A stretch of DNA of 64,000 nt, from the NCBI RefSeq assembly GCF_003014575.1, contig NZ_PYGF01000005.1:1-64000 (forward strand). Reading direction: 5' to 3'. Made by a program: the position numbers and the translations under genes. Shown piece after piece: positions 32,185-59,849 of this stretch. Every line of letters begins with the position of its first letter. The first letter of the stretch is position 1. The notes below the pieces were generated by a model. The model was given only the letters and a program-made list of their open reading frames with translations, made no database searches and was not told the DNA's origin. The DNA is from Cecembia rubra (GTDB lineage Bacteria; Bacteroidota; Bacteroidia; Cytophagales; Cyclobacteriaceae).

Positions 32185-34383
32185 ATGAAAAAATTTTATT
32201 TGGTCATATTTCTGCTCTTGGGAAATATTAGTACAGGAATTGGAAGGGAGCTCATTTCTGTTGCCTTCAATACCCAAAATGAGCAGATTTCCTTTGCTGC
32301 AGGAGAACTTAAAAAAGAACTTTATTACGACGGTATTCAACTTAGGTTATCCGACCTTAGTCAGGTAATGGAAATTCCCAATATCACCGTAGTAGTCAAA
32401 GGGGATTATTCTTTATTTTTTGATGACATTATTGAGGATACAGATTTTGAAAACATTGGTCCTGAAGGTTTCAAAATTAAAAAAATAAAAGGGGGCAGAT
32501 CAATATTTGTTCTGTCAATCGACCAGAATGGGGCAGTTTATGGTCTGCTCGATATCGGTGAACATCTTCTCTCCAAAAGAGATATTAATGAATATGAGGC
32601 TAGACTTGTCAACCCTGCATTTGAATATAGGATTGTAAAATTCAATCTGCCCTGGTCGCCTTACAGATCGAGTGCGGCTACAGAAGTACACACTCATATC
32701 AGCCGGGATATTTCATTTTGGGAAAGATTCCTTGATATGATGGTTGAAAACAGGCTCAATGTCCTTTCCCTGTGGAATAACCATCCATTTCCTTATATGA
32801 TCAGCTCTGAAAACTTTCCCCAGGCAAGTCCTTTTAATGATGTGGAAATGGAAGAATGGAAAAACTTTTGGAAAACCCTATTTAGGATGGCAAAAATCAG
32901 GGGCATACAGACTTTTATTGTCAACTGGAACATTGTTGTTTCCCCGGAGTTTGCCGAAGCATATGGAGTAAGGGAATACAATGATTTGTCAGAGACCGTA
33001 AAAAAATATACTAAAGAGTCTGTAACCCAGCTTATCAATGAATATGATGACCTTACCGGAATCGGCGTTACCCTTGCCGATTGGATGGGGAATTTCGGGG
33101 AAATGGAAATGACTCCCCAAAAACGTGAAGAATGGATTGAGGAAACTTTTGTTGCCGGAATGAAAGCCGCAAAAAGACCCGTGAAATTTATCCACAGATC
33201 AGTGCTTGCAGGTGACCCTGTGGCCATGAGGAACCTAATTGACAGGGCCGACCTGAAAGATCCTGCCCTGGTGGAGATCAAATTCAACTGGTCACACGGA
33301 CATTCCACACCAAAGTTGGCTATCACACATGACTATCATTCCGGTGAACTCGACGAGAGATTCTGGAATCCTATACCCCACAATTACCGGATACAATGGA
33401 TGGTCAGGAATGAGGATTTTTTTATCCTCCGTTGGGGACAGCCGGATTTTATAAGGGAACATATTTCTGAAAACACCAAAGAATATGTAAACGGTTATTT
33501 TATAGGTTCAGAAGGTTTTATTCCGGCGATGGATTATTCCCATAAACTTTCCCCGGTAAAAACTTGGCAGTATGCTTTTGAAAAACAATGGATGTTTTAC
33601 AAAACCTGGGGAAGATTACTCTACAGGCCTGATACACCTGACAGCTACTTTATTGACCAAATTGAAAGGAGATTCGGGAAAGGAAAGGGAGAGCCGCTTT
33701 TTGAAGCATATAAACTTTCAGGGAACATGCCTTTAAGACTTGCATCATTTTATAGGTCAACCTGGGATTATACCCTTTATTCGGAAGGATTTATTGAAGC
33801 AGAACCATCTTCAAGGACCAAGTGGTTTGACAGGTCATCCCCCTTCATTTCCGTGGACCAGCTGATCAACCATGAAACATTGGATCCAGACATGGTTTCC
33901 ATAGCTGACTATTCCAAGATGGTTGGAATGGGTGAAAAGCTCGGACCACAAAAGATTTCACCATTAAAACTGGCAGAACTCTCCGAATCGGACAGTAGGA
34001 AATCCCTTGAACTCATCGGAACGCTTTATAATAAGACTTCATCCTTTAGCGGAGCTCTGGTTTCAGAACTCGATGATATAGCCACTTGGAGCTACCTCGG
34101 GCTTTATTTTGCTGATAAACTCAGGGCTGGAGTTGCCCTTCAGGATTTCCGAAATACTGGGGATGAATCCAAAAAGGAAAAAGCAGTTGAGCTCCTTGAG
34201 AAATGCCTAGACCACTGGGACATGGTAATCAGATACACCAGTGGAAGGTATTACCCCACGCCCCATGTTAGCACCCAGCGTTACGGTGAAGAATTCAAAG
34301 AATTTTCCTGGGAACAACTCAGGCCACAGGTAGTAAGAGATATTCAGATAGCCAAAGATTCAATTATAAATTCCGATAAATGA
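32185..34383 (+). CDS. Secreted alpha-glucuronidase-like (GH67/GH20b-type) protein, paralogue A
   Basis: 732 residues with a signal peptide (MKKFYLVIFLLLGNISTGIG). Residues about 20-135 resemble the N-terminal domain of GH67/GH20-type glycosidases: EGFKIKKIKGGRSIFVLSID then GAVYGLLDIGEHLL. A putative TIM-barrel follows with FLDMMVENRLNVLSLWNNHPF, FKFNWSHGHSTP-like text (VEIKFNWSHGHSTP), MVRNEDFFILRWG and GSEGFIP. Family-wide alignment with the two paralogues at 50.6 and 52.8 kb is clear, but their GEGM motif is ADWM here (Asp codon at 33079), so activity may differ. Substrate is unknown; a uronic-acid-bearing glycan is a guess. The stop overlaps the next ATG. Confidence 0.7.
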   Translation: MKKFYLVIFLLLGNISTGIGRELISVAFNTQNEQISFAAGELKKELYYDGIQLRLSDLSQVMEIPNITVVVKGDYSLFFDDIIEDTDFENIGPEGFKIKKIKGGRSIFVLSIDQNGAVYGLLDIGEHLLSKRDINEYEARLVNPAFEYRIVKFNLPWSPYRSSAATEVHTHISRDISFWERFLDMMVENRLNVLSLWNNHPFPYMISSENFPQASPFNDVEMEEWKNFWKTLFRMAKIRGIQTFIVNWNIVVSPEFAEAYGVREYNDLSETVKKYTKESVTQLINEYDDLTGIGVTLADWMGNFGEMEMTPQKREEWIEETFVAGMKAAKRPVKFIHRSVLAGDPVAMRNLIDRADLKDPALVEIKFNWSHGHSTPKLAITHDYHSGELDERFWNPIPHNYRIQWMVRNEDFFILRWGQPDFIREHISENTKEYVNGYFIGSEGFIPAMDYSHKLSPVKTWQYAFEKQWMFYKTWGRLLYRPDTPDSYFIDQIERRFGKGKGEPLFEAYKLSGNMPLRLASFYRSTWDYTLYSEGFIEAEPSSRTKWFDRSSPFISVDQLINHETLDPDMVSIADYSKMVGMGEKLGPQKISPLKLAELSESDSRKSLELIGTLYNKTSSFSGALVSELDDIATWSYLGLYFADKLRAGVALQDFRNTGDESKKEKAVELLEKCLDHWDMVIRYTSGRYYPTPHVSTQRYGEEFKEFSWEQLRPQVVRDIQIAKDSIINSDK

Positions 34384-36665
34384 AAAATAAAATAATCCCC
34401 GATTTAGGAAACGGAACTAAAGCTAACGGAATCATGATCTCAAGAAGAAACTTTTTGCAGACAGGCAGTTTGGTCACAGGAGGTTTTTTGCTTACTCCGG
34501 CGTTTGCCTCTGCAAACATTATTGACCAAAAGCAAAATCCACTTTTGCCCCTTCACTGGTACCAGAAACCTGTTAGGATCATGCATACCGTGCTCAGGGA
34601 AATTGATGCAAGGAACTATGATGCTTCCAAGGTGGTGGACTACCTAAAAAATGGTGGTTATAATACACTCTGCGTCAATGCAGGAGGAATAGTGGATTTT
34701 TTTCAGAACCCTTTGCCTGGTGGAAACATCAATAAAGAAATGGGAGAAAGAGATGTGTTGCGGGAAATTACAGAGGCCTGCCAAAAGGAAAACATAAGGG
34801 TTATCGCCAGAATTGACTTCAGGGGAGTAGAAGAGCATGTTTACAATAAATTTCCGAATTGGTTTATGAAAGATCCCGATGGGAAGCCTGTCAAGCTCAC
34901 ATATACCAAGCCTGAACTTTATTCTTCATGTTACCTAGGAGAGCACCGGAACCAATACGCAAATGAATTCGTGGCTTATGTCCTGAAGAATTACAGGGTG
35001 GATGGAATTTGGCATAATTCTCCAGGGTTTAACGGTATCTGTTACTGTAATGCTTGCAGGGAGTCCTTTCTTGATTTTGCTGGTAAAGCTCTTCCTGAGA
35101 GAAGAACTGTTTCAACTGAGGAAATAGAAGAATACATGGTCTGGAAAAGAAGAGAGGCAGACAGGTGTATGGAAAACATTAAAAAGACAGTAAAATCGTT
35201 TGGCGAAGACAAGGTATACACCGCTGAGATTTTTAGTATTTATGATGTGGGGCAGCAACTGGACTGGGGCCTGGGGTTCGATAATGCCAGACGTCATTTT
35301 GATATTTTAGTCAGCGTAGCATTTTTGACAGGTCATGGTTCGGATAAATATTATTTTGACCTGAATTATGGGACTACTATCATAAAATTCCTAAAATCAA
35401 TGCATCCTGAAAAGGAAGCGGTGGTCATGTATGGTAGCAACGGAACTTCCCACCGGCTGGTTTCCGATCCCTCAATCGACTTGAAGATTTGGCTTTGGCA
35501 GATGCTTTCGGTAGGCGGCAGATTCTGGAACTGTTATTTTACAAATGTCCCTACACTCACACATGATAACAGAAATGCATTCAATGAAAAAGATACCTAT
35601 ATGTTTGTCAGGGAACATGAAAAAATCCTTGAACAGCAAATCCCTTTCTGTAATGTAGGCATTTATTATTCTAATTCCACAAGGGAATCTTACAGGAGAA
35701 AATCTGAAGATGAAGCGCTGTTTGGAAATGAAATAAGGGGTACTGAAACTGTCCTTGTAGAAGAGCATATCCCGCATGATTTTATCATAGATGATTATCT
35801 GGATGCAGCAAAACTTCAAAAATACAGACTTATAATTTTACCAAATGTTAAATGCCTTTCCCTTAAAGAATCTGAAATACTTAAAAATTATGTAAATAAC
35901 GGTGGAAATTTGGTAGCTACATATGCAACCGGCCTATATGATGAAAAAGGCAATCCTTTGGGCAACTACCGACTTCATGAACTTTTCGGTGTAGGTTATT
36001 CGGGAATAAGAGAAAATACAAAAAGTGATAATTATCAATATATACTTGATAAATCACATCCATTGGTGGCAGAGGACAGCCGTGAAACTGAACTACTTTT
36101 TAATGCCGCCTATACGGCACTCTGTAAACCTTACCCCAGTACAAAAGTAATATGTACCTGGGTGCCTACCATACAGAACCAGCCTCCTGACAAATCATGG
36201 GTAAATTCATTTTCCACTGAATATCCCACAATTGTGGAAAATACCTTTGGTAAAGGGAAGGTTATCTATTTTGCAAACCAACCTGATCTGCTAAGCCATG
36301 AAATAGGACATGCCGATCCAAGAAACTTATTGGCAAGGGCATTTAGATACCTTCTTGAAGATCATGTCCCAGTAGAGACAAATGCCCCGCCAAGTGTCAA
36401 TCTCGGACTGACCGCTTCCCTCATCGAAAAGGGACAATATGTTCTTTCTCTAGTCAACACTACTTCTGGGCCGGTCCGCCCTATCCGGAAACTAATTCCA
36501 GTTAATAATATCTTGGTAAGCGCCAAAATTCCTGGTGAAAGCCCCAAAAGTTTTAAGATTTTAAAAAGCCAGGGTAACTGCAGTGTCAAATTTTTGGGGG
36601 ACAGTATTCATGTGGAATTGGATAAGTTGGAAGATTATTTTTCAATCCATTTTTCTACCGTGTAA
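34380..36665 (+). CDS. Exported GHL6-type hypothetical glycosyl hydrolase with beta-galactosidase trimerisation-like domain
   Basis: 761 residues. ISRRNFLQTGSLVTGGFLL looks like a Tat signal, and the ATG at 34434 would place the twin arginine near the N-terminus. Residues about 65-330 match the GHL6-type TIM-barrel: YLKNGGYNTLCVNAGG, EACQKENIRVIARIDF, WFMKDPDGKP, YRVDGIWHNSPGFNGICYCNAC. Residues about 440-660 look like the flavodoxin-like trimerisation domain of GH42 (LIILPNVKCLSL, LKNYVNNGGNLVATYATGLYDE). GHL6 proteins are predicted hydrolases without established substrates. Translation is coupled to the preceding gene by an ATGA overlap. Confidence 0.7.
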   Translation: MKNKIIPDLGNGTKANGIMISRRNFLQTGSLVTGGFLLTPAFASANIIDQKQNPLLPLHWYQKPVRIMHTVLREIDARNYDASKVVDYLKNGGYNTLCVNAGGIVDFFQNPLPGGNINKEMGERDVLREITEACQKENIRVIARIDFRGVEEHVYNKFPNWFMKDPDGKPVKLTYTKPELYSSCYLGEHRNQYANEFVAYVLKNYRVDGIWHNSPGFNGICYCNACRESFLDFAGKALPERRTVSTEEIEEYMVWKRREADRCMENIKKTVKSFGEDKVYTAEIFSIYDVGQQLDWGLGFDNARRHFDILVSVAFLTGHGSDKYYFDLNYGTTIIKFLKSMHPEKEAVVMYGSNGTSHRLVSDPSIDLKIWLWQMLSVGGRFWNCYFTNVPTLTHDNRNAFNEKDTYMFVREHEKILEQQIPFCNVGIYYSNSTRESYRRKSEDEALFGNEIRGTETVLVEEHIPHDFIIDDYLDAAKLQKYRLIILPNVKCLSLKESEILKNYVNNGGNLVATYATGLYDEKGNPLGNYRLHELFGVGYSGIRENTKSDNYQYILDKSHPLVAEDSRETELLFNAAYTALCKPYPSTKVICTWVPTIQNQPPDKSWVNSFSTEYPTIVENTFGKGKVIYFANQPDLLSHEIGHADPRNLLARAFRYLLEDHVPVETNAPPSVNLGLTASLIEKGQYVLSLVNTTSGPVRPIRKLIPVNNILVSAKIPGESPKSFKILKSQGNCSVKFLGDSIHVELDKLEDYFSIHFSTV

Positions 36666-36701
36666 TTCAAAAAAATCAATTCAATCAAAACAAGAAAAAT
36701 T

Positions 36702-37991
36702 ATGGCCATTTGGTTAAAAAAAGGCAAACCTGAAGCACAGGTTATGGAAGAGAATTTTGGTGTCACCAAAGTAGTGGCCCAGATTATTAAAGATGTTGAG
36801 GAAAATGGAGATAGGGCAGTAAGGTCCTATTCTGAAAAATTTGATAGTTGGAGCCCCAAGAGCTTCAGACTGACCGAACAGGAATTGAAACAGATATTCA
36901 ACCAGACAGATCCAGGAGTAATCAGGGACATAAAGTTTGCCCAAGAACAAATCCGAAATTTTGCACAATTGCAAAAGGATTCCATTAAAGATATCGAAGT
37001 GGAAACCTTGCCAGGAGTAATTCTAGGACATAAGAACATTCCGGTGAACAGTGTGGGATGTTACATTCCAGGAGGTAGATACCCGATGGTGGCTTCAGCA
37101 CATATGAGTATACTTACTGCCAAAGTAGCCGGCGTAAAAAGGGTCATTGGTTTTACCCCACCCATAAAAGGTGAAATCCCAAAAGCAACCATTGTTGCCA
37201 TGGCATTGGCAGGAGCTGATGAAATTTATATTCTTGGTGGGGTACAAGCAATTGCTGCAATGTCAATAGGTACTGAATCCATTGAGCCGGTTGACATGAT
37301 TGTTGGACCCGGGAATGCATATGTGGCAGAGGCTAAAAGGCAGCTTTTCGGAAAAGTTGGCATTGATCTTTTTGCAGGACCTACTGAAGTTCTGGTAATC
37401 GCCGATGAAACAGCAGATGCGGAAATGGTCGCCTGCGATATCCTAGGACAAGCCGAACATGGTCCCACTTCCCCTGGTGCGCTTATCACCACTTCCAAGG
37501 AACTTGCACTAGAAACTGAAATTGAAATAAAAAAACAGCTTCAGAAACTTCCCACAGCGGATATTGCAGGTCCGGCTTGGGAGAATAATGGCCAGATAAT
37601 CCTTGTAAAAGATGAAAAAGAAGCAGTTTACCAAGCAGACAGACTTGCATATGAACACGTTGAAGTCCTGACGAAAAACCCGGATTACTTTCTGGAAAAT
37701 ATGACCAATTACGGAGCTCTGTTCTTGGGAAAGGAAACAAACGTGGCTTATGGTGATAAGGTTATCGGCACCAATCACACCCTTCCGACCAACAAGGCCG
37801 CTAAATATACTGGTGGGCTATGGGTTGGGAAATTTCTCAAAAACTGCACCTACCAGAAATGCACCCCCGAAGCAAGTCTCCTCATCGGAGAATATGCCAT
37901 GAGATTGTGTGAAATAGAAGGCTTTATGGCCCATAAGGAACAGGCTGCCCTAAGGGTCAAGAGATATAGTATCCAAGGGGAAACTGCCTGA
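36702..37991 (+). CDS. Histidinol dehydrogenase-family enzyme, HpsN-like polyol/hydroxy-acid dehydrogenase
   Basis: 429 residues. The family zinc ligands are all present (Q250, H253, D352, H411) and the catalytic pair E319-H320 is intact. GCYIPGGRYPMVASAHMSI, LGGVQAIAAMSIGT and IDLFAGPTEVLVIADE read closely like HpsN, the NAD-dependent (R)-dihydroxypropanesulfonate dehydrogenase, rather than histidine-biosynthetic HisD. There are no his genes nearby and it sits among glycosidases and acid permeases. It probably performs a two-step, four-electron oxidation of a terminal CH2OH to a carboxylate in the cytoplasm. No sulfo-lyase genes are in the window, so a sulfonate is not required. Substrate unknown. 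Confidence 0.82.
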   Translation: MAIWLKKGKPEAQVMEENFGVTKVVAQIIKDVEENGDRAVRSYSEKFDSWSPKSFRLTEQELKQIFNQTDPGVIRDIKFAQEQIRNFAQLQKDSIKDIEVETLPGVILGHKNIPVNSVGCYIPGGRYPMVASAHMSILTAKVAGVKRVIGFTPPIKGEIPKATIVAMALAGADEIYILGGVQAIAAMSIGTESIEPVDMIVGPGNAYVAEAKRQLFGKVGIDLFAGPTEVLVIADETADAEMVACDILGQAEHGPTSPGALITTSKELALETEIEIKKQLQKLPTADIAGPAWENNGQIILVKDEKEAVYQADRLAYEHVEVLTKNPDYFLENMTNYGALFLGKETNVAYGDKVIGTNHTLPTNKAAKYTGGLWVGKFLKNCTYQKCTPEASLLIGEYAMRLCEIEGFMAHKEQAALRVKRYSIQGETA

Positions 37992-38078
37992 AATGGAAAG
38001 TATTTATTGGAATTCTCGGATAACATCATTATACCGAAAAGCGCCTGGCCCACACTAACTTCATAATAAAATCTTGCA

Positions 38079-39473
38079 ATGGATATAGCTGTAATTTTAT
38101 TTTCTCTCGTCTTTCTGATCTATGTGGCATACAAGGGGTACAGTGTGATAATTTTTGCTCCGGTTGCAGCATTAATGGCGGTTTTCCTGAATTCGCCAGA
38201 CCTTGTTATGCCTTTCTTTTCAGGAGTGTTTATGGAAAGGATGGTGGACTTTATAAAACTGTACTTTGCGGTTTTTCTGCTGGGAGCAATATTCGGGAAA
38301 GTCATCGCCATGTCCGGGTTTGCAAAATCCATTACCTCCTTTACCTTAAAAGTTTTCGGTAAACACAATGCCATTTTGGCCATTGTTACTGTATGTGCCG
38401 TTTTGACCTATGGTGGTGTTTCTCTGTTTGTAGTTGCATTTGCTGTTTACCCCTTTGGTGCAGAACTTTTTAAAGCCGCAGATATCCCAAAAAGGATACT
38501 TCCCGCAACCATTGCTCTAGGAGCTTTTACTTTTACCATGGATGCATTCCCAGGATCACCTCAGATACAGAATATTATTCCAACAGCATTTTTTCAGACC
38601 GATTCTTGGGCGGCGCCATGGCTGGGACTGTCAGGCGGGCTGTTCATTTTTTTGTTGGGCATGATCTATCTGGGATGGAGAAAAAATTCTGCAACTGTAA
38701 ATGGTGAGGGGTATGGGGAGGGACATTTCAATGAACCAGATGAGGAAATCAGAGAGTCTCTTCCTAAACCAATAGTGGCCATTCTCCCATTGGTGGTAGT
38801 AGCAGTGCTAAACAAGGCTTTTACAGAAATGGTCCCTAAATATTATGGAACTATTTATAGGTTTTCAGATATGGGATTCAATGGTTTGCCTGAAATAGAA
38901 ATTTCAAAGGTAACCGCTATTTGGGCTGTTCAGATCAGCTTGGTTTTTGGAATCCTTACCGTTGTTGCATTTGCCTTTAGCCATGTTAGAAAAAACTTTG
39001 CTACTGAATTGAACCTTGGGGTCAGTGGTGCAATGCTGGCGACTTTGAACACTGCCTCTGAATATGGTTTCGGGGCCGTAATTGCTGCTCTTCCGGGTTT
39101 TCATGCTGTCACTGACCTAATTTCTGATACTTTTAATAATTTATTGGTAAATGAAGCTGTAACTGTTTCTGTCCTTTCTGGTATTACAGGCTCCGCCTCA
39201 GGAGGAATGAGCATAGCACTTGCCACAATGAATGAATCTTACCTTCAACAGGCATCAGATCTGTGCATTCCGGCGGAAGTACTTCACCGGGTTGCCTCAA
39301 TGGCCAGTGGGGGGATGGACACTCTTCCACACAATGGGGCTATTATCACACTTCTGGTTGTTACCGGACTAACTCACAAACAGTCCTATGGGGATATTTT
39401 AGTCATGACAGTCATAAAAACCTCAGCTGTCTTTTTTATCATTTTCCTTTACAATGTTTTTGGTATGGTATGA
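38079..39473 (+). CDS. GntP-family H+:gluconate-type permease
   Basis: 464 residues with about 12 hydrophobic segments. Motifs typical of GntP carriers are FGKVIAMSGFAKSI, YGGVSLFVVAFAVYPFG, ALGAFTFTMDAFPGSPQIQN and the late GSASGGMSIAL and RVASMASGGMDTLPHNGA. GntP members import gluconate, fructuronate, glycerate or related small sugar acids with protons. It follows the HpsN-like gene by 87 bases and precedes the enolase-superfamily gene, which supports import of a small hydroxy acid. The precise substrate is unknown. Confidence 0.88.
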   Translation: MDIAVILFSLVFLIYVAYKGYSVIIFAPVAALMAVFLNSPDLVMPFFSGVFMERMVDFIKLYFAVFLLGAIFGKVIAMSGFAKSITSFTLKVFGKHNAILAIVTVCAVLTYGGVSLFVVAFAVYPFGAELFKAADIPKRILPATIALGAFTFTMDAFPGSPQIQNIIPTAFFQTDSWAAPWLGLSGGLFIFLLGMIYLGWRKNSATVNGEGYGEGHFNEPDEEIRESLPKPIVAILPLVVVAVLNKAFTEMVPKYYGTIYRFSDMGFNGLPEIEISKVTAIWAVQISLVFGILTVVAFAFSHVRKNFATELNLGVSGAMLATLNTASEYGFGAVIAALPGFHAVTDLISDTFNNLLVNEAVTVSVLSGITGSASGGMSIALATMNESYLQQASDLCIPAEVLHRVASMASGGMDTLPHNGAIITLLVVTGLTHKQSYGDILVMTVIKTSAVFFIIFLYNVFGMV

Positions 39474-39526
39474 TCAGAAACTATCCAGACATGAAAGAAG
39501 GCAGCAAGAAATAGAACAGATATCAG

Positions 39527-40816
39527 ATGAAAAACAACAGAAGGGAATTTATATCAAAAGTAGTGCTTGGAACTATTGCTACAGGCTCATCCTCTATGCT
39601 TTCCTGTAGGGATTTTTCAAATGGGATATTGGATGGGGAGAAATCCATGAATTATAAAATACTTGATGAAGAACTACAAAAGCCTGTTTTTAAAAGGGAA
39701 CTTTTTTCAGAACCTGTGCACATTGAAAGCATTTCTTTATTAAACTATGGAGACAGCTTCCTTTGTAAAGTGCGTTCTTCGGAAGGAGCAGAAGGGATTT
39801 CCGTAGGCCATTCGGAACTCAAAAACCTTTATCCTCTTTTTTTAAGAAAAGTACAACCTTTTTTTATAGGAAAAGACGCTAGGGATCTTGATGATATTAT
39901 AGAAAGGGTCTATATCTACAGCCTAAATTTTAGATATAATGGGATTTCAATAGGGATACCTGTTGCAACCATTGAATTTGCAGTTCTTGACATGATGGGT
40001 AAGATTGCTGGCAAATCCTTGGGAAACCTAATTGGGGAAATCCATAACCCTGAAGTGGGAGTTTACATAGCCACCGAGTTCAGGGAAAAGCCATTGGAAG
40101 AACATCTTGAACTAATACAAAATACAGTTTCTCAATATGATGTCAATGCACTTAAGATTAAGGTCGGATATCAACATGCCTGGACAAAGGAACTGTATTA
40201 TAAGGGGCCAATCGGAAAAACTGAAAAACTCATACCCAAGGTAAGGGAGATCTATGGGGACAAGATGGCCCTTTATGCCGATGCTAACGGATATTATTCT
40301 ACTAAAGAAGCAATCCAGGTTGGGAAAATGCTTCAAGAGAATAATTACAAATACTTTGAGGAACCGGTAATGTTTGACCATTTTGAGGATATCAAAGCGG
40401 TGGCCGACAGTTTGGATATTCCTATAGCCAACGGTGAACAGGATTACAGTTTTTACAATTTCCGCTGGCTATTGGCAAATGATGGAATTGAAATTGTCCA
40501 GCCTGATAATTTTTATTTTGGGGGCTTTATCAGGTCTATGAAAGTTGCCAAAATGGCACATGCAATGGGGAAAAGCTGCGTGCCCCATATGTCAGCCGGA
40601 GGACTTGGTTATCTGTATGATATCCATTTTGTCTCAGCAATTCCAAATGCAGGGGAGCACCATGAGACACATGGAGCCAAGAGTAATATTCCATTCGAAT
40701 GTCCTAGTTCACCCTTAAAAATCACAGGGGGGAAAATCAAAGTTCCCACTGGTCCGGGTCTGGGCATTGACATTGATCCATCTTTTATTTTGAAACATAT
40801 AGAGGTAACGGTTTGA
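39527..40816 (+). CDS. Exported enolase-superfamily (mandelate racemase-like) enzyme
   Basis: 429 residues. The N-terminus NNRREFISKVVLGTIATG, followed by LSC at 25-27, looks like a Tat signal with a possible lipobox. The capping domain is residues about 45-165 and the barrel carries the mandelate racemase-type residues: K210 and K212 in LKIKVG, D252 in DANG, E278/E279 in FEEP, E304 in NGEQ, D327, and H354 in PHMSAGG. Such enzymes dehydrate or epimerise acid sugars by abstracting the alpha-proton. Cytoplasmic location is usual for the family, so the export signal is the striking point. Upstream in-operon partner is the GntP permease. Confidence 0.8.
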   Translation: MKNNRREFISKVVLGTIATGSSSMLSCRDFSNGILDGEKSMNYKILDEELQKPVFKRELFSEPVHIESISLLNYGDSFLCKVRSSEGAEGISVGHSELKNLYPLFLRKVQPFFIGKDARDLDDIIERVYIYSLNFRYNGISIGIPVATIEFAVLDMMGKIAGKSLGNLIGEIHNPEVGVYIATEFREKPLEEHLELIQNTVSQYDVNALKIKVGYQHAWTKELYYKGPIGKTEKLIPKVREIYGDKMALYADANGYYSTKEAIQVGKMLQENNYKYFEEPVMFDHFEDIKAVADSLDIPIANGEQDYSFYNFRWLLANDGIEIVQPDNFYFGGFIRSMKVAKMAHAMGKSCVPHMSAGGLGYLYDIHFVSAIPNAGEHHETHGAKSNIPFECPSSPLKITGGKIKVPTGPGLGIDIDPSFILKHIEVTV

Positions 40817-40869
40817 ACAATCTTATACCTAAGTCAGGTAAATAATTAACAAAATTCAAGAACAAACTA

Positions 40870-42360
40870 ATGATAGTAGAAAAACAAGAAATTCCAAAAG
40901 TACCCATGATCATGGGTGAGAAAAGAATATATAAGGAAAATTCCGTCAATTATCCAGTATTTAATCCATCAACAGGCGAAATCATCGGGCTTACACCGGA
41001 AGGAACAGCTGGGGATGTGGATCATGCAGTTGGAATCGCAAAGAAAGCTTTTGCTGATTGGTCAAGAATGCCGCCGACAAAAAGGGCAGAAATTCTTTTT
41101 AAATATAGAGCATTGATAGAACTGCATATGGAGTCTATTGCTGAAATGATCACTCTTGAAAACGGGAAGACCATCGATGAGGCCAGGGGGGACATTAGAA
41201 GAGGTTATGAAGTTGTGGAGTTTGCCTGTGGGATTGCACACCTGCTCAAAGGTGAAAGTCTTTCTAATATAGCTCCCGAAATAGATGGTATCACCATCAG
41301 GGAACCTCTTGGAGTCTGTGCGGGGATTTCACCTTTTAATTTTCCGGCTATGGTGCCTATGTGGATGTTTCCTATTGCCATTGCCTGTGGTAATGCTTTT
41401 ATTCTCAAACCCAGTGAAAAAGTTCCCTTTACGGCAATCAGGCTTACAGAGCTTTTCTTAGAGGCAGGTCTTCCGCCTGGGGTATTGAATATCGTACATG
41501 GTGGAAAAGAAGTGGTAGATGCACTGTGCTCCCATCCAGGAATAGCCTCAATAAGCTTTGTGGGTTCTTCGGCCATTGCAAAGCATGTTTATAGACTTGC
41601 TTCAGCTTTAGGTAAGAGAGTCCAGGCAGGGGGAGGAGCAAAAAATGTACAGTTGGTCATGCCGGACGCAGACCCCGAATCCACCATTCGCGCAATTTCA
41701 GGTGCAGCTTTTGGTTGTGCTGGGCAGCGGTGTATGGCTGGATCCTTGCTAGTTGGAATAGGAGGAATTGCCGGATCTCTTAAATCCAAATTGGTTGAAG
41801 TCATGGATAGCCTTGTAATCGGAGATACCGGTTCGGGAAGGAAGGTGGATATGGGGCCAGTAATTGATGCGAGAAGTAAAGAAAGAATTACCGATACAAT
41901 CACTGCCTCAGAAAAAAAGGGAGTCGAAATTCTAAGAGATGGGAGGATAGGTATACCGGAAAAGGGTTTTTTTGTCGGGCCTACATTACTGGATCAGGTT
42001 AGTCCTGAAATAGATTTATTTGAGGAAGAGATCTTTGGTCCAGTTCTTTCGGTCCTGTCACCAAAAAATCTGGATGAGGCTATTTCATGGTTAAACCAAC
42101 TTCCATTTGGTAATGGGGCAACAATCTACACTTCCAACGGAAGATATGCCAGAGAATTTGCCTCTAAAATCAACTGTGGAATGGTAGGTATTAACGTGGG
42201 GGTACCAGCTCCAATGGCATTGTTCCCTTTTGCAGGTTGGAATGATTCGTTCTATGGGGACCTCCACATGCAGGGTACCGAAGGAGTGATGTTCTACACC
42301 AAACAAAGAGTTGTGCTGTCCAGATGGGATAATAATTATCAAAGAATTAACGGCTGGTAA
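40870..42360 (+). CDS. mmsA: CoA-acylating (methyl)malonate-semialdehyde dehydrogenase
   Basis: 496 residues of the aldehyde dehydrogenase superfamily. The nucleophile is C288 in FGCAGQRCMA. The position of the general-base glutamate of ordinary ALDHs is replaced (QAGGGAKN instead of LELGGKN), as in MmsA/IolA. The C-terminal MmsA hallmark GINVGVPAPMALFPFAGW then DSFYGDLHMQGTEGVMFYT is complete. Such enzymes turn malonate semialdehyde into acetyl-CoA, or methylmalonate semialdehyde into propionyl-CoA, with release of CO2. In this locus acetyl-CoA could feed the malate synthase homologue. It is one base from the downstream alcohol dehydrogenase gene. Confidence 0.88.
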   Translation: MIVEKQEIPKVPMIMGEKRIYKENSVNYPVFNPSTGEIIGLTPEGTAGDVDHAVGIAKKAFADWSRMPPTKRAEILFKYRALIELHMESIAEMITLENGKTIDEARGDIRRGYEVVEFACGIAHLLKGESLSNIAPEIDGITIREPLGVCAGISPFNFPAMVPMWMFPIAIACGNAFILKPSEKVPFTAIRLTELFLEAGLPPGVLNIVHGGKEVVDALCSHPGIASISFVGSSAIAKHVYRLASALGKRVQAGGGAKNVQLVMPDADPESTIRAISGAAFGCAGQRCMAGSLLVGIGGIAGSLKSKLVEVMDSLVIGDTGSGRKVDMGPVIDARSKERITDTITASEKKGVEILRDGRIGIPEKGFFVGPTLLDQVSPEIDLFEEEIFGPVLSVLSPKNLDEAISWLNQLPFGNGATIYTSNGRYAREFASKINCGMVGINVGVPAPMALFPFAGWNDSFYGDLHMQGTEGVMFYTKQRVVLSRWDNNYQRINGW

Positions 42361-42361
42361 T

Positions 42362-43528
42362 ATGGATAAAGGATTTGTGTTCAATTCTCCCAAAGCCTCA
42401 ATTTTTGGAAAAAACACGCTTAGTGACCTTCCGAAATTGGTAAGAGATTTCGGAACTGAAAAGGTGATGATTGTCACTGATAGGTTTTTTATTCAAAACG
42501 GACTGATTGACCTTATAAGGGAAAACTTAGAAAACTCAGGTTTAAGTGTAGTCATTTTTTCCAATGTTAGACCTGATCCGACCCTTGAAAATGTTTATGA
42601 GGGATTGGAGCTTCTAAATGAATCTGGAGCCGGTCTTCTTATCGGTGTAGGTGGGGGGAGCCCAATCGACGCAGCAAAAGCAATATCGATACTTGCAACC
42701 AATCCCAAACCCTTGGAACGTTATATGGGCTACCATAAGGTTCAAAAGGCAGGTTTACCTCTGATTGCTATTCCAACAACAGCAGGTACAGGCAGTGAGG
42801 CAACCAAAGTCGCGGTTATAACCGATTCAGTGAATGATGTCAAAATGATGATCCTCGATAAAAGCCTGATGCCTTCTGCTAGTATCATTGATTATTCCCT
42901 TACAATGACAATGCCCCCAGATCTAACAGCTTATGTAGGGGTGGACACCCTTACTCATGGCATCGAAGCATTCGTATCCCTTAAATCTAATCCGATTTCT
43001 GATTCATTGGCATTATCCTGTATTGGACTTGTCAGCAAACATCTTAAAAAGGCTTGGGAATTTCCCGAAGATGAACAGGCAAGACAAGGGATGTCTTTGG
43101 CAGCTTTTCTGGGGGGGCTTTCATTTACCAACAGCAGCGTGGGTCTTGTCCATGGGATGAGCAGACCCCTTGGAGCTATTTTTCATCTAGCCCATGGTCT
43201 TTCAAATGCCATATTGCTCCCAACAGTAGTGAGATATTCCCTAAAAGGTTCACCAGCTAAATATGCCGAAATTTCTTCAGTTATGGGGTTTGCTAAGAAG
43301 GGTGAGACAGAAGAATCTACAGGGATGAATTTGGTAAAGGGACTAATTGAACTGAACAGTTTCTTAAACATTCCTAGACTTAGTGAATGTGGAAAAATAA
43401 AAAGCAAGGATTTTTTTGGATCTCTTGAAAAGATGGCTTCGGATGCCCTCGCTTCAGGTTCTCCCCAAAACAATCCGATTATTCCGACCATGGAAGAAAT
43501 TGTTACTCTTTACAAGGAAGCTTGGTAA
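42362..43528 (+). CDS. Iron-containing (group III) alcohol dehydrogenase
   Basis: 388 residues from the ATG at 42362; a longer frame overlaps the previous gene and is less likely. Nucleotide-binding GGGSPID is at 97-103, and metal ligands are D195 and H199 in GVDTLTHG, H264 in LVHG and H278 in FHLAHG. The family oxidises or reduces small alcohols and hydroxy acids (lactaldehyde, glycerol, 3-hydroxypropionate, 4-hydroxybutyrate). With the semialdehyde dehydrogenase just upstream it may supply a semialdehyde from a hydroxy acid (inference). Confidence 0.88.
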   Translation: MDKGFVFNSPKASIFGKNTLSDLPKLVRDFGTEKVMIVTDRFFIQNGLIDLIRENLENSGLSVVIFSNVRPDPTLENVYEGLELLNESGAGLLIGVGGGSPIDAAKAISILATNPKPLERYMGYHKVQKAGLPLIAIPTTAGTGSEATKVAVITDSVNDVKMMILDKSLMPSASIIDYSLTMTMPPDLTAYVGVDTLTHGIEAFVSLKSNPISDSLALSCIGLVSKHLKKAWEFPEDEQARQGMSLAAFLGGLSFTNSSVGLVHGMSRPLGAIFHLAHGLSNAILLPTVVRYSLKGSPAKYAEISSVMGFAKKGETEESTGMNLVKGLIELNSFLNIPRLSECGKIKSKDFFGSLEKMASDALASGSPQNNPIIPTMEEIVTLYKEAW

Positions 43529-43729: not shown

Positions 43730-44380
43730 ATGATCAATAACCCAAAACCACCAAGACCTGAGAATAATGTGATCAGCCTGTTAAGTCATTCTGAATCCAT
43801 CAAAATATTTGAAAACAAATCAGATGAAGAAATTTGGAAGGCTTTCGACAAAGGAGATGAATTTGCGTTCAACTATATTTATAGGATATACGTAGTCAAA
43901 ATGTTCCAATATGGATGCCAGTTTGCCAAAGATCATTCACTAATTCAGGACTGTATACAGAACATTTTCATCGACCTGAGAAGAAAGAGGGGAGGACTAA
44001 GCACTGTGGTAAGCATAAAAGCCTATCTATTCAAAATATTATATAGGGAAATAATCCGAAAACAGAACAAGAACAAGATAGTTGGTCAGCAATCCTTTGA
44101 AATTTCCGAGGAAGGTTTCTCAATTGAATATTCTCATGAAACCAAACTCATCAATGATGAAAGCATGGAAAGGAAAAGGGAATTAGTTATGATGGCGCTG
44201 GAAAAATTGAGCCAGAGGCAGAGACAGGCTATTCTGTTGATGTACGAGGAGGGTATGAGCTATAAAGAGATTTCCGTAGCTATGGAATTCAGTGAGGTTA
44301 AATCAGCCCGGAAAGTAATATACAGAGCACTAGCATCACTCAAAGATCTGTTACATGAAAAAGCACCGTATTTAAAATAA
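43730..44380 (+). CDS. ECF sigma factor of the SusCD locus
   Basis: 216 residues. Region 2 runs from DEFAFNYIYRIYVVKMFQYG to DHSLIQDCIQNIFIDLRRKR and LFKILYREIIRKQ; region 4 contains LSQRQRQAILLMYEEGMSYKEISVAM. An unusual N-terminal extension of about 35 residues precedes region 2. It is followed by fecR and an STN-containing susC, the standard trans-envelope arrangement in which ligand binding by SusC frees sigma through FecR. It should drive susC and downstream genes. Confidence 0.9.
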   Translation: MINNPKPPRPENNVISLLSHSESIKIFENKSDEEIWKAFDKGDEFAFNYIYRIYVVKMFQYGCQFAKDHSLIQDCIQNIFIDLRRKRGGLSTVVSIKAYLFKILYREIIRKQNKNKIVGQQSFEISEEGFSIEYSHETKLINDESMERKRELVMMALEKLSQRQRQAILLMYEEGMSYKEISVAMEFSEVKSARKVIYRALASLKDLLHEKAPYLK

Positions 44381-44407
44381 AGTTTTAAAAAATAATCATA
44401 AACTTTT

Positions 44408-45445
44408 ATGAAATATAGGGATTACGATATTGAGCATTTTATTACCGATGAGTTTTTTATACAATGGGTGGTTAACCCCAATGAAAACAATACTCATTTT
44501 TGGGAGAAATGGCTTGAACAGCACCCCGAAAAAAGGTTGGTCGTCAATGATGCGGCCAATTTTATTAGGTCGATAAACTATAGCATCAGACCTGAACTTC
44601 CAGACAAAATATATGTGGACATTTATGAAAATATTTTAAAGTCCGAACAAAGAAATATTATAAGGCAAACGGAGAATGTTTCCCGTGGTTTTTTTTATTT
44701 ATTCCCTATTCGGAGTATAGCTGCCACTCTTTTGTTGATTTTCTGCCTTTGGATCCAGTTTGAATCAATCAATTATCAAAGGCCGGTACAGCAGGAAATG
44801 CCATTGATAACTATGGTTAAAAAATCTAATCCCATTGGTAGGAAATCAGTTATTGAACTTCCAGATGGATCAAAGATTCACCTAAATTCAGAGAGTGAGC
44901 TAGAATTCCCTTCAGTTTTCTCCGATACCTTGAGATGGGTTAGTCTAAAAGGAGAGGCTTTTTTTGAGGTTAAGAAAGAAGCCAGACCTTTTTATGTGGC
45001 ATCTGAGTCAAATGGCATACATGTCCTTGGTACTACCTTTAATGTTAACCAATCAGATAACGGGTCTTTGTATGTTGCATTAGTAACCGGGAAAGTTAGA
45101 GTAGAATCGGAACTGGGAAAACAGGTTGAACTTGAGCCAAAGGAAATGTTGGTCCTGCAAAAGAACGGTTCCTTTTACAAAACGGGATTTGATCCTATGG
45201 ATATTTTGGCATGGAAAGATAAAATCTTGGTATTTAAAAGTTCGGACCTAGTAGAAGTGAAGTCAAAACTGGAAAAGTGGTACGGGATCAAGGTCGAATA
45301 TTCCGGAAATTTTGATAAAAACTGGACTTATTCTGGTACTTATGAGGATGAAATACTAGAAAACGTTCTTAAAGGTATTTGCCTTACCTCAGGAATGGAA
45401 TTTACAATAGAAGAAGATAAAGTAACCATCAACAACCCAAAATGA
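44408..45445 (+). CDS. FecR-type anti-sigma factor
   Basis: 345 residues. A cytoplasmic N-terminal part (about 1-95, DUF4880-like, HFWEKWLEQHPEKRLVVNDA) is followed by one membrane helix (IAATLLLIFCLWIQF, about 100-115) and a periplasmic FecR domain: RKSVIELPDGSKIHLNSESELEFP, VSLKGEAFFEVKKEARPFYVAS and VLGTTFNVN. The C-terminal DUF4974-like segment is LVEVKSKLEKWYGIKVEY. It receives the signal from the STN domain of the SusC protein and controls the sigma factor encoded 27 bases upstream. Confidence 0.92.
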   Translation: MKYRDYDIEHFITDEFFIQWVVNPNENNTHFWEKWLEQHPEKRLVVNDAANFIRSINYSIRPELPDKIYVDIYENILKSEQRNIIRQTENVSRGFFYLFPIRSIAATLLLIFCLWIQFESINYQRPVQQEMPLITMVKKSNPIGRKSVIELPDGSKIHLNSESELEFPSVFSDTLRWVSLKGEAFFEVKKEARPFYVASESNGIHVLGTTFNVNQSDNGSLYVALVTGKVRVESELGKQVELEPKEMLVLQKNGSFYKTGFDPMDILAWKDKILVFKSSDLVEVKSKLEKWYGIKVEYSGNFDKNWTYSGTYEDEILENVLKGICLTSGMEFTIEEDKVTINNPK

Positions 45446-45583: not shown

Positions 45584-48500
45584 ATGAAAAATAATGTACT
45601 GAGACAACTGGTTATGGTGTCAAAAAGAATATTCTATGCATTCATTGTCCAACTGTTTTTTTGCACTGTTATTTTGGCCAACAATAGTAATGCTCAACGC
45701 AAAAATATTGAAGAGGTCAAATTATCCATCAATATCAAAGAAAAACCGCTTTCACATTTTTTTAAGCAGGTAGAATCCAAAACAGATTACAAATTTACTT
45801 ATACCGACAACCTTGTCAATTTAAATCAAGAGATATCGGTCTCAGGTTTCAATAAGTCACTTTATGAGATACTGACCGTGGTAAGTATGCAGACAAAACT
45901 GAATTTTGTCCAGATCAATGAAAACATTCATGTAAAGGTCAAAGGAAGTTTTCCTCCAGAGAGTGTTGTAAAGATCACACCGCCCGCTGATATCTTTGTA
46001 AGGGGCATTGTCAATGATGAAAAAGGGATGCCTATCCCTGGAGTTTCTGTACTTGTAAGAGGGACAACCAAGGGAACAACTACTGACCTGGACGGCGCTT
46101 TTTCTTTGCAGGTTCCTGAAGGGGCCACCCTGATTTTTTCTTTTATTGGATTTATAACTCAGGAAGTAAACATTGGGAACAGGTCCCAAATCAATGTTAC
46201 ATTGGTGGAGGATATCTCTGCCCTTGGTGAAGTGGTTGTAGTCGGATATGGTACCGTGGACAGAAAAGACCTGACGGGATCCATTGGATCGGTAACTGCC
46301 AGCCAACTTACAGAAATGAATGGGAGTGCAATCCGGGTTGATGCTGCACTTCAAGGAAAAGTAGCTGGTGTTGACGTAAGGTTGAGAGACGGAGAACCCG
46401 GCAGTGCTCCCCAAGTTACCATCAGGGGACTTGGCAGTATCGGTGCAGGTTCAAATCCTCTTTATGTTGTGGATGGATTTCCAGTTGAAGATATTGGGAC
46501 CTTAAACATGAATGATATAGAAAGCATTGATATTCTTAAAGATGCAGCATCAACATCCATTTATGGTTCAAGAGGTGCAAATGGTGTTGTTATGATAACA
46601 ACAAAAAGAGGTAGAGAAGGTAAAACCAACATCACCCTTGATGTATATAGAGGTATACAATCTCCAATGCTTCAAAGAGATATGATGAATGCAATGCAAA
46701 GTGCCCAGTATTTTTTTGATGGGATGAGGAATAGAAATATTGATGAAGGGCGTGATGTAAGTGGGGATCCTAGAACGTGGTTTAGGCCAGTAGGGCAAGA
46801 AGTAATGGATGTTTTAGAAGGTAGGAATACATATGATGTCAATCCTTTGGATTATGTATTGAGGAAAAATTCACCACAATCACAATATTCTTTATCAACG
46901 AATGGTGGTACTGAGAAAGTCCAGTTTGCTATAAGTGGTGAATACCTTAGTCAAGGTGGTTTAATCATTGAAAATGATATGGAAAGGATTTCATTTAGGT
47001 CAAATATTGATGCAAAACTCACAAAAAAGATTAAAATCAATTTTAACTTAAACCCATCATTTATCCATAGAAATAGAGTCCAATCTTCAGGGCATGCTTC
47101 CGAGCCTGACCACCTAAGTATTATAGGTGTGGCAACAACAATGCACAACTATTTCCCTCTTTTCGACGCAAATGGAGAATATGCTAAATTTGAAGGGTAT
47201 AGTTCACTTGCAAATCTTGCAAATCCAGTAGCTATTGCAAAAGAAATTAAACAGGTCGAGAAACAGGGAAGAATACTTGGTAATCTAAATTTAATTTATG
47301 ACATCAATAAGGACTTAAAATTTAATGTCTTATTGGGAGGAAATCTTAGGAATCAAAGAGATACTTATTTCAGGCCTAAGATCCCAGTATTTTTTGGTAC
47401 CTCAATATTTGGAAGTGATGGGACCACATGGGCCGAAACATGGGTATCGGAATTCATTCTAAGTCATGATAAGAAAATTAATAAACATTCATTTTCAACA
47501 GTTGGTGGTTTTACAGCCCAAAAAGACAGGATAGAAGTGAATCATCTGGAAAGCACATTCTTTCCAAATAATTTGGTGAAAACTTTGAATGCTGCAAGCC
47601 AAATAACTAATGGTTACTCCCAAATCAACGAATGGGCACTCCTTTCTTACTTAGCTCGGGTAAATTATAATTTTAACAGTAGATATTATGTATCTGCCTC
47701 GATTCGGACCGACGGATCTTCAAGATTTGGTTCTAACAATAAATGGGGATTTTTCCCTTCTGTTGGAGCAACTTGGAGAATTTCTGATGAAGCTATCATG
47801 AAGGATATTGATTTTTTAACTGATTTAAAGTTTAGAGTTAGCTATGGGGAAACTGGAAATAATAATATTGGAAATTATGCTCACTTGCCTACTGTTGGAT
47901 TTCAGAATTATCCTACAGGTCCTGGTTTTGCGGCATCTGCCTTACCAAACCCAAATCTGAGATGGGAAAAACAACGTCAATCTAATGTTGCTTTAGATGC
48001 TCTCCTATTTAATGGAAGGCTTGGTCTTACTGCTGAGTATATGAGATCTGTTAGTTCTGACCTACTTTTATTTGTACCTGTTCCCCAGATTACTGGTTTC
48101 AATACAATGCTTCAAAACATTGGTGAAGTCGAAAATAAAGGTTGGGAATTTGTCCTTAATACAGTCAACACTAAAGGAAAATTTAATTGGACAACTGATT
48201 TTAATATTTCAAGTTACAAAAATAAAGTTTTGCAGCTTGGACCAGAAAATGCTCCAATAATAAGTGGAGCTCATATTACAAAAGTTGGACAGCCAATTGG
48301 TATGTTTTTCGGCTATTTATTTGATGGGATTTTTATGAATCAATCAGAAATAGAACGAGGCCCTTTATGGAATCCAGGTGGAAATGCTGAATCTAGGCCA
48401 GGTGATATAAGATGGAAAGATGTTAGTGGTCCAGAAGGAGTTCCAGATGGAAGAATTGATACGAACGATAAAACAATAATGGGTAGTCCCTATGCAAAAT

Positions 48501-49006
48501 TCTTTTACGGAATGCAAAACAGGCTTAGTTTTAAGAATTTTTCATTGGTTGTCAGTTTGACTGGATCATATGGTAACCAGATTTTGGCTGAAGCATATAG
48601 ATCAAATGCAAATACCCGTGGCCGAATGAAACAAGTTACCAGAATGTTAAATTATTGGCAGTCAGAACAAAATCCTGGTGATGGTAAAACTCCAAGACCA
48701 AATGATGGACCAAAAGGTGGAAATAGAGAACAGTGGAGTCAATTTCACTTAATGGATGGATCATATTTGAGGATCAACAACATAAATTTCGCCTATCAAA
48801 TACCTAAACATTTATCCGATAGGTTGGGTATGGGAAATGCTAAGTTGTATTACACATCTTTCAATCCTTTTATTTTTACAAGCAAAGATTATAATGGATT
48901 CAATCCTGATGTAAACAATAGTGGAGCAGCTTTGACGCCTGGTGTTGACCTAAACAATTATCCTGTGCCTAAAAGCCATATTTTAGGAATTAACATTTCC
49001 TTTTAA
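45584..49006 (+). CDS. susC: SusC-type TonB-linked outer-membrane transporter with STN signalling domain
   Basis: 1140 residues. A signal peptide (to about residue 37, NAQ) is followed by an STN domain (about 46-118, INIKEKPLSHFFKQVESK), a carboxypeptidase-like domain (140-215, GTTKGTTTDLDGAFSL), then the plug (EVVVVGYGTVDRKDLTGSI, TIRGLGSIGAGSNPLYVVDGFP, DILKDAASTSIYGSRGANGVV) and the barrel ending in GINISF. The STN domain links it to the upstream FecR/sigma pair. It forms a pair with the SusD gene 29 bases downstream and should import an oligosaccharide or similar. Base composition drops sharply after about 46.56 kb. Confidence 0.95.
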   Translation: MKNNVLRQLVMVSKRIFYAFIVQLFFCTVILANNSNAQRKNIEEVKLSINIKEKPLSHFFKQVESKTDYKFTYTDNLVNLNQEISVSGFNKSLYEILTVVSMQTKLNFVQINENIHVKVKGSFPPESVVKITPPADIFVRGIVNDEKGMPIPGVSVLVRGTTKGTTTDLDGAFSLQVPEGATLIFSFIGFITQEVNIGNRSQINVTLVEDISALGEVVVVGYGTVDRKDLTGSIGSVTASQLTEMNGSAIRVDAALQGKVAGVDVRLRDGEPGSAPQVTIRGLGSIGAGSNPLYVVDGFPVEDIGTLNMNDIESIDILKDAASTSIYGSRGANGVVMITTKRGREGKTNITLDVYRGIQSPMLQRDMMNAMQSAQYFFDGMRNRNIDEGRDVSGDPRTWFRPVGQEVMDVLEGRNTYDVNPLDYVLRKNSPQSQYSLSTNGGTEKVQFAISGEYLSQGGLIIENDMERISFRSNIDAKLTKKIKINFNLNPSFIHRNRVQSSGHASEPDHLSIIGVATTMHNYFPLFDANGEYAKFEGYSSLANLANPVAIAKEIKQVEKQGRILGNLNLIYDINKDLKFNVLLGGNLRNQRDTYFRPKIPVFFGTSIFGSDGTTWAETWVSEFILSHDKKINKHSFSTVGGFTAQKDRIEVNHLESTFFPNNLVKTLNAASQITNGYSQINEWALLSYLARVNYNFNSRYYVSASIRTDGSSRFGSNNKWGFFPSVGATWRISDEAIMKDIDFLTDLKFRVSYGETGNNNIGNYAHLPTVGFQNYPTGPGFAASALPNPNLRWEKQRQSNVALDALLFNGRLGLTAEYMRSVSSDLLLFVPVPQITGFNTMLQNIGEVENKGWEFVLNTVNTKGKFNWTTDFNISSYKNKVLQLGPENAPIISGAHITKVGQPIGMFFGYLFDGIFMNQSEIERGPLWNPGGNAESRPGDIRWKDVSGPEGVPDGRIDTNDKTIMGSPYAKFFYGMQNRLSFKNFSLVVSLTGSYGNQILAEAYRSNANTRGRMKQVTRMLNYWQSEQNPGDGKTPRPNDGPKGGNREQWSQFHLMDGSYLRINNINFAYQIPKHLSDRLGMGNAKLYYTSFNPFIFTSKDYNGFNPDVNNSGAALTPGVDLNNYPVPKSHILGINISF

Positions 49007-49035
49007 CTATTCTATGGACTATTAATAATCAGAAA

Positions 49036-50472: not shown

Positions 50473-50614
50473 TATAATTGCCTGATATTTTCTGGCTATG
50501 ACTCATAAGAATAAATTATTCAAAGGAGACATAGCCAGATTTTTAACTAATGTCCAGTTTAATTCCTCAATTATCCGGTTTTTTCCGACCAACCGGTGTT
50601 ACAGCTATAGCTTT

Positions 50615-52750: not shown

Positions 52751-52764
52751 TAAATCATGTCTAT

Positions 52765-56837: not shown

Positions 56838-56943
56838 TATATCTTCTATCCCTGATCCTTTACAGTTCCGGTAGAATTCAGTCTTAGGAAAATAATTACC
56901 AAAAGAAAGACCCTGAAAACAAAAGACAAGAAACCCAAAAATT

Positions 56944-59847: not shown

Positions 59848-59849
59848 CT

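Follow-up and report, generated by a model that had tools for sequence, protein, structure and literature searches.

A gene called hisD in Cecembia rubra belongs to a separate, widespread bacterial group that most likely oxidises a small sugar-derived acid in carbon-source breakdown

The window analyzed herein is a stretch of 64,000 nucleotides of Cecembia rubra (contig NZ_PYGF01000005.1, positions 1 to 64,000), in which a gene of the histidinol dehydrogenase (HisD) superfamily lies within a long run of genes on the forward strand. The features of this locus are as follows.

32185..34383, + strand: secreted GH-like protein, with a remote alpha-D-galacturonidase match (123 bits against a cut-off of 1300); start of a putative operon
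34380..36665, + strand: GHL6 / beta-galactosidase-trimerisation-domain protein; 4 bp overlap with the upstream gene, 36 bp ahead of the dehydrogenase gene
36702..37991, + strand: HisD-superfamily dehydrogenase ORF, 429 aa, ATG start, 0 internal stops
37056..37088, + strand: GCYIPGGRYPM loop of the dehydrogenase, residues 119-129 (coordinates computed from the residue numbers)
38079..39473, + strand: permease, with 35-80% identity to the GntP-like permeases adjacent to the dehydrogenase in relatives
39527..40816, + strand: enolase-superfamily acid-sugar-dehydratase-like protein; top NCBIfam match arabinonate dehydratase, 135 bits against 650
40870..42360, + strand: CoA-acylating methylmalonate-semialdehyde dehydrogenase subfamily (MmsA-type), 569.5 bits against a cut-off of 448.5
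42362..43528, + strand: iron-containing alcohol dehydrogenase (Fe-ADH), ErcA/lactaldehyde-reductase-like, below cut-offs; end of the putative seven-gene operon
43730..45445, + strand: RNA polymerase sigma factor and FecR-like anti-sigma pair, named from ORF reading
45584..50472, + strand: SusC/SusD outer-membrane glycan uptake pair, named from ORF reading
50498..54918, + strand: two more GH-like proteins, the first a remote alpha-D-galacturonidase match (132.6 bits against 1300)
54957..61526, + strand: malate-synthase-like protein, FAD/Fe-S 2-hydroxy-acid dehydrogenase-like protein, and LctP lactate/glycolate permease
61575..62189, + strand: YhcH/YjgK/YiaL-family protein; end of the conserved locus

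The seven genes from 32185 to 43528 are tightly packed, with successive gaps of -4, 36, 87, 53, 53, and 1 bp, and 201 bp then separate them from the sigma factor gene; promoter-like sites were no more numerous than in shuffles, and terminator-like sites were fewer. All of the locus genes (17/17) had counterparts in identical order on one Cognataquiflexum rubidum contig, with 57-82% identity across the aligned regions; the contig was covered by three pieces that overlap or adjoin one another (L032, L189, and L191). In a third genome (L076), the SusC/SusD pair, the dehydrogenase, and the permease were present, along with a match to the enolase-like protein that covers 357/429 residues at 52% and a YhcH match that was weak (30%). 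The carbohydrate connection drawn in an earlier, sequence-only reading of this DNA is borne out by the catabolic setting, with its many carbohydrate genes. The same reading saw neither histidine genes nor sulfo-lyase genes in the window, which stands for the ORF translations inspected (ORFs of at least 100 aa), with profile scans extending to part of the ORFs. Further, no SDR or MDR gene, as would be expected of hpsO or hpsP, was recognized in the window cluster by ORF reading or by Pfam and NCBIfam scans.

The permease gave no Pfam or NCBIfam match at E 0.001. The N-terminus of the enolase-like protein (39527-40816) has, by eye, the look of a Tat signal and lipobox, so the site of action of this candidate sugar-acid dehydratase may be extracytoplasmic. 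The malate-synthase-like protein (54957-56837) scores 239 bits against a malate synthase A cut-off of 594.5 and may condense a different oxo acid. Three GH-like paralogues occur in the window (32185-34383, 50498-52750, and 52765-54918), the last of which shares 41% identity with the C. rubidum protein that corresponds to the 32185 gene, and they possibly represent an uncharacterised glycosidase family.

The PF00815 match of the dehydrogenase itself is near full-length (residues 20-418, E 5e-143), and the protein scores 474.7 bits against the NCBIfam hisD model TIGR00069, for which the cut-off is 243.8, which makes hisD the name that automatic annotation will tend to give it. The zinc ligands Q250, H253, D352, and H411, which the sequence-only reading had called intact, are all in place and align with Gln248, His251, Asp352, and His411 of HpsN from Cupriavidus pinatubonensis (CpHpsN). 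The catalytic pair is likewise intact, albeit at E318-H319 in the alignment rather than at E319-H320 as first numbered. The two motifs that had been likened to HpsN, GCYIPGGRYPM and AEAKRQLFG (residues 209-217), are also present, except that the diagnostic histidine of GRY[A/S]H is replaced: Met129 occupies the position of HpsN His126, while Lys353 is kept. This loop region sets apart HpsN (GRY[AS]H), most HisD sequences (G[ST]APL), and the clade with GRYPM to which the window protein belongs. A fold search with the AlphaFold model (mean pLDDT 80.5, with loops 218-226, 354-363, and 365-382 close to the active site falling below 50) returned HpsN at the top (9cp7, TM 0.87), followed by HisD.

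Phylogeny and gene context separate this protein from the histidine pathway. In a careful tree of 41 rows, support was 100/99 for the GRYPM clade, 100/100 for HpsN, 100/100 for HisD, and 99/97 for HpsN plus the clade, and a quick tree of 85 rows gave the same grouping; the window dehydrogenase falls outside HisD, within the clade that is sister to HpsN. Residue 353 divides the tree set in the same manner, being Lys in 59/59 clade rows and 5/5 HpsN rows, and Tyr (as GDY) in 18/18 HisD rows. The genome has two matches at E <= 0.001, the other of which (C1:919174-920412) is 36% identical to the window dehydrogenase and is flanked by ORFs that read as hisG-like and hisC-like. The genomes of seven relatives each carried, besides the clade copy, one or more others at 33-40% identity (7/7), presumed to be HisD, and one of the seven (G579) had an additional copy at 46%. 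An ordinary HisD identity was rejected on the tree, the operon context, residue 353, and the second copy in a his operon, in line with the expectation of the sequence-only reading that the protein is not a true HisD.

Membership of HpsN, which was weighed first as the best structural match, was also rejected, since His126 is missing. In PMC11382572, HpsN is described as using the HisD fold on the small diol acid DHPS, with the motif GRY[A/S]H where HisD has GSAPL, and with a His126 that is conserved across HpsN homologues and binds the sulfonate together with Lys353. Among the relatives of the window dehydrogenase, the His126 position was Met, Leu, or Ile in 158 of the 158 loci where it could be read (Met in 132, Leu in 24, and Ile in 2) and His in none; in an earlier count, the 140 proteins that could be read had Met in 125 cases, Leu in 13, and Ile in 2. 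Lys353, by contrast, was kept in 159/159 loci, a set that includes two repeats. The five HpsN rows, all with His at this position (5/5), comprise CpHpsN and four assigned by gene context that also carry GRY[A/S]H: L129 adjoins comDE, L192 adjoins an SDR and an alcohol dehydrogenase, and L193 and L195 adjoin D-cysteine-desulfhydrase genes together with genes for taurine transport or sulfate/sulfite export. The promiscuity of HpsN is a point on which the two HpsN papers disagree, as activity of CpHpsN on L-histidinol was not detected in the one (PMC11382572), whereas R. pomeroyi HpsN takes L-histidinol with an efficiency 691-fold below that for DHPS in the other (PMC11131964).

Within the GRYPM clade, the catalytic machinery was retained throughout. 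Zinc-binding and catalytic residues were kept in 59/59 clade rows of the tree, window included, and at every read position across the 159 loci. Further residues, among them Q81, H110, H134, I355, W374, and G376, occur in at least 95% of clade rows and are absent from the HpsN and HisD groups, although W374 and G376 are also present in another group of the HisD superfamily, marked by RYPL and SDK motifs (L194:5962-7257 and L197:5968-7266). The edge of the family is not sharp and grades into its neighbors. Specifically, six copies from the class of a Rhodospirillaceae MAG (L201-L206, 48-53% identity) carry KYPL, Lys353, and all zinc and catalytic residues, lack His134, and have G[VI]G instead of VIG, and they form a possible further subgroup; a Deinococcus copy (L121, 59%) likewise lacks His134. 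The clean identity gap that had appeared around the family among the 60 of 270 plasmid records listed was undone by those six copies.

The distribution of the group is wide and uneven. At E <= 1e-130, copies were found in 44 of 289 sampled genomes from the class of the Rhodospirillaceae MAG (G575), 38 of them at >= 57% identity and the remainder being the six just described, and in 14/250 genomes from the class of a Paenibacillus genome (G576). At 1e-120, 3/296 genomes of the window's phylum had a copy, and at E <= 4e-162, so did 14/291 genomes of its order, the window's own included; this patchy spread in the Bacteroidota is consistent with horizontal transfer. Among the 40 of 202 matching plasmid records that were listed, 38 were annotated, all as "histidinol dehydrogenase", and one of these bore the gene name hpsN.

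The neighborhoods of relatives are varied. Within 6.5 kb of the dehydrogenase in 140 loci, which are phylogenetically non-independent and include many Bacillales, we counted SDR genes in 82, LacI regulators in 77, GntP-like permeases in 44, 3HCDH genes in 41 (38 with SDR), Fe-ADH in 24, and MmsA in 18; a sigma-54 regulator (15), FAH (10), and MR_MLE (8) were rarer, and 26 of the 140 had none of the six common families. A second gene caller, applied to 153 loci with five genes per side, gave SDR 83, LacI 43, 3HCDH 34, permease 31, MmsA 26, and Fe-ADH 25. The first (Python) caller erred in high-GC loci, missing an annotated gene at L129, for example, and the counts are approximate, given that the two callers differ (LacI 77/140 versus 43/153). 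Neighbors in the Firmicute set were taken from annotations, and the names in other clusters come from sequence reading. In Bacillales loci such as L052:14083-20127, the dehydrogenase cluster is accompanied by a sigma-54 regulator, Fe-ADH, a GntP-like permease, and MmsA, a set that could be a 3-hydroxypropionate-type module. Two marine Roseobacter loci (L123 and L125) hold several "ester cyclase"/NTF2-type genes, a cupin, and a methionine-synthase-II-like gene. The cluster around one Cytophagales/K84 subgroup is of another kind and contains FAH, VOC-dioxygenase-like, and cyclase genes; across L173-L180, L182, L112, and L116 (many of them Cytophagales, and two on plasmids), the adjacent FAH, VOC-dioxygenase-like, and alpha/beta-hydrolase or cyclase genes have the look of an aromatic pathway.

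The known substrates of the fold are HOCH2-CH(NH2)-CH2-imidazole and HOCH2-CH(OH)-CH2-SO3-, and both products are L-configured. By our own chemical analogy, swapping the sulfonate of R-DHPS for a carboxylate gives (S)-3,4-dihydroxybutyrate, which would be oxidized to L-malate. At the level of the class of reaction, we put a probability of about 65% on the dehydrogenase being a catabolic Zn/NAD four-electron enzyme that takes a HOCH2-CH(OH)-type carboxylic acid to a dicarboxylate. The machinery of HpsN and HisD is fully conserved in it, which makes a four-electron alcohol-to-acid oxidation the default expectation. For HpsN and HisD, PMC11382572 has the substrate coordinate zinc with its hydroxyl or amine at C2 and with a distal group, and proposes the histidine as base and the glutamate as activator of water, with two hydrides passing to NAD+. 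On that analogy, the CH2OH of HOCH2-CH(OH)-(...)-COO- would become a carboxylate through two hydride transfers to NAD+, with a bound aldehyde hydrate between them; zinc would be chelated by the secondary hydroxyl and a distal carboxylate or keto-acid group, Lys353 would pair with the substrate anion, His319 would act as base, and Glu318 would activate water. In relatives with an SDR and a 3HCDH, the C3 hydroxyl might be inverted via a 3-keto acid, similar to the action of HpsO/HpsP on DHPS.

That the anion site is kept while the sulfonate histidine is missing points to a carboxylic acid as the probable substrate. The Met or Leu at position 129 resembles the Leu of HisD, and in that respect the substrate may be neutral. 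A simple polyol appears less likely than an acid, given that Lys353 is kept in 159/159 relatives read and GntP-like permeases stand in 44/140 loci; of the polyol or hydroxy-acid oxidation offered by the sequence-only reading, it is the hydroxy acid that we favor. At two loci (L047 and L065), the six common families are represented within 6.5 kb by LacI and the permease alone, which favors a product that enters central metabolism directly, and the 3,4-dihydroxybutyrate route, needing no other pathway enzyme, fits loci of this type. It is our leading guess at a specific substrate, although a tentative one that we would expect to fail more often than not. Against it, the window has no SDR and 3HCDH pair, and the route leaves the enolase-like, MmsA, Fe-ADH, and malate-synthase-like genes of the window unexplained. 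Equally tentative is the broader proposal that the HisD fold includes a third functional class, in which (S)-3,4-dihydroxybutyrate would be converted to L-malate in one four-electron step, with the SDR/3HCDH pair epimerising the other enantiomer, in Bacteroidota, Bacillota, Pseudomonadota, Chloroflexota, and Deinococcota, under the annotation hisD.

Several other readings need to be weighed, and the confidence given to them overlaps that of the general reaction class, since several are special cases of it. The heterogeneous contexts of the relatives argue against any single reaction, and it is possible, if on balance improbable, that one clade serves several substrates, the same core active site acting on different hydroxy acids in sugar-acid, aromatic-type, and SnoaL-type clusters; the core positions, on the other hand, are invariant over 159 loci. 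We regard as rather unlikely, though it comes close behind 3,4-dihydroxybutyrate as a specific guess and accounts for the window genes better, the oxidation of a 2-keto-3-deoxypentonate (HOCH2-CHOH-CH2-CO-COO-) to 4-hydroxy-2-oxoglutarate, which an aldolase would cleave to pyruvate and glyoxylate. In that scheme, the keto-deoxy acid would come from the enolase-like dehydratase and malate synthase would take the glyoxylate, and genes resembling both are found in the conserved locus. In shape (HOCH2-CH(OH)-CH2-Y) the substrate is like DHPS and histidinol, SDR dehydrogenation of such acids at C4 (Route III) is known from PMC6336799, and aldolase-type genes are annotated beside L120 and L121 (the cluster holding those two accounts for 10/153 loci). 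No aldolase was noticed in the window, however, and 28/140 loci have SDR, 3HCDH, and LacI but lack the HpcH, RraA, MR_MLE, and FAH clusters. Ranking after this, and unlikely in our estimate, is oxidation of the terminal CH2OH of a tetronate or larger aldonate to an aldarate (threonate or erythronate to tartrate; gulonate or galactonate to the aldarate). Lactonase/gluconolactonase genes adjoin L117 and L120, sugar ABC transporters adjoin L117, LacI regulators are common, and the enolase-like dehydratase could take an aldarate; yet no tartrate or aldarate enzymes were seen in the Firmicute core set, and the extra hydroxyls would require a pocket larger than that of HpsN.

The two known activities of the fold fare worse. 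That the enzyme is a DHPS 3-dehydrogenase that has merely lost the diagnostic histidine is very improbable, even though HpsN is its nearest relative of known activity, Lys353 is kept, and enzymes of this fold can be promiscuous, E. coli HisD accepting R-DHPS with low affinity and an efficiency below that for histidinol (PMC11131964). His126 is absent from every readable relative, and neither Xsc nor ComE rose above its curated cut-off in any of eight genomes (0/8 each), where the control genomes likewise had no Xsc above cut-off and the ComE-like match of G579 stayed below it (130.6 versus 221.5 bits); the PF04295 profile used in the search for SuyB is not diagnostic of SuyB. Least credible of all is a second histidinol dehydrogenase. 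It is favored by the score above the NCBIfam hisD cut-off and opposed by the tree, by Lys rather than Tyr at 353, and by the other copy in the his operon. Further, no hisG or hisC homologue was found at E 1e-20 among 1564 neighbor genes of 140 relatives' loci, where three weak aminotransferase-type matches lay at around 1e-7.

Oxidation of a non-sulfonated hydroxy acid to a dicarboxylate, our preferred reading, would extend the chemistry of the family in a direction for which no precedent was seen in the search listings of the open PMC literature, outside which most subscription journals lie. The sequence-only reading had anticipated a new use of this fold, which is partly so, as HpsN already puts the fold to work on DHPS (PMC11382572) and is itself evidence that it is not confined to histidine. 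Sampled groups on either side of HpsN lack the sulfonate-binding histidine, so the tree suggests that this residue arose in the HpsN line; if the (S)-3,4-dihydroxybutyrate reading is true, HpsN would be related to carboxylate enzymes and would have acquired it. The gene called hisD here belongs to a separate, widespread bacterial group that most likely, judging from sequence, oxidises a small sugar-derived acid in the course of carbon-source breakdown. If that is right, the histidine-biosynthesis label would hide a carbon-source pathway in many genomes, predictions of histidine auxotrophy could be wrong, and the one-enzyme conversion of an alcohol to an acid would gain a new class of substrate.

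Relative to known systems, the window dehydrogenase has in common with HisD (E. coli 1kae, Medicago 5vld, and Brucella suis 4g07) the fold, the zinc ligands, and the catalytic Glu-His pair. HisD nevertheless forms its own clade, with roughly 35-41% identity between HisD-type copies and the dehydrogenase, and has Tyr at 353 where the dehydrogenase has Lys; the latter, moreover, sits outside any his operon. The RYPL group (L194 Microvirga and L197 Rhizobium) is homologous and, as in the window protein, has Lys353 and no His126, but it branches outside HpsN plus the GRYPM clade and is found in the context of a cupin and an ABC transporter. The closest comparison is with the sister clade HpsN, the R-DHPS 3-dehydrogenase of Cupriavidus pinatubonensis (8v35/9cp7) and Ruegeria pomeroyi (8wwe). 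The window dehydrogenase differs from it in lacking His126, in having no SDR, MDR, or sulfolyase noticed adjacent to it in the window, and in the residues from Q81 to G376 named above, which are conserved in its clade and missing from the five HpsN rows. The two are alike in fold, zinc ligands, Glu318/His319, and Lys353, and the HpsN loci L129 and L192 have an SDR and a LacI regulator adjacent, as do many relatives in the GRYPM clade.
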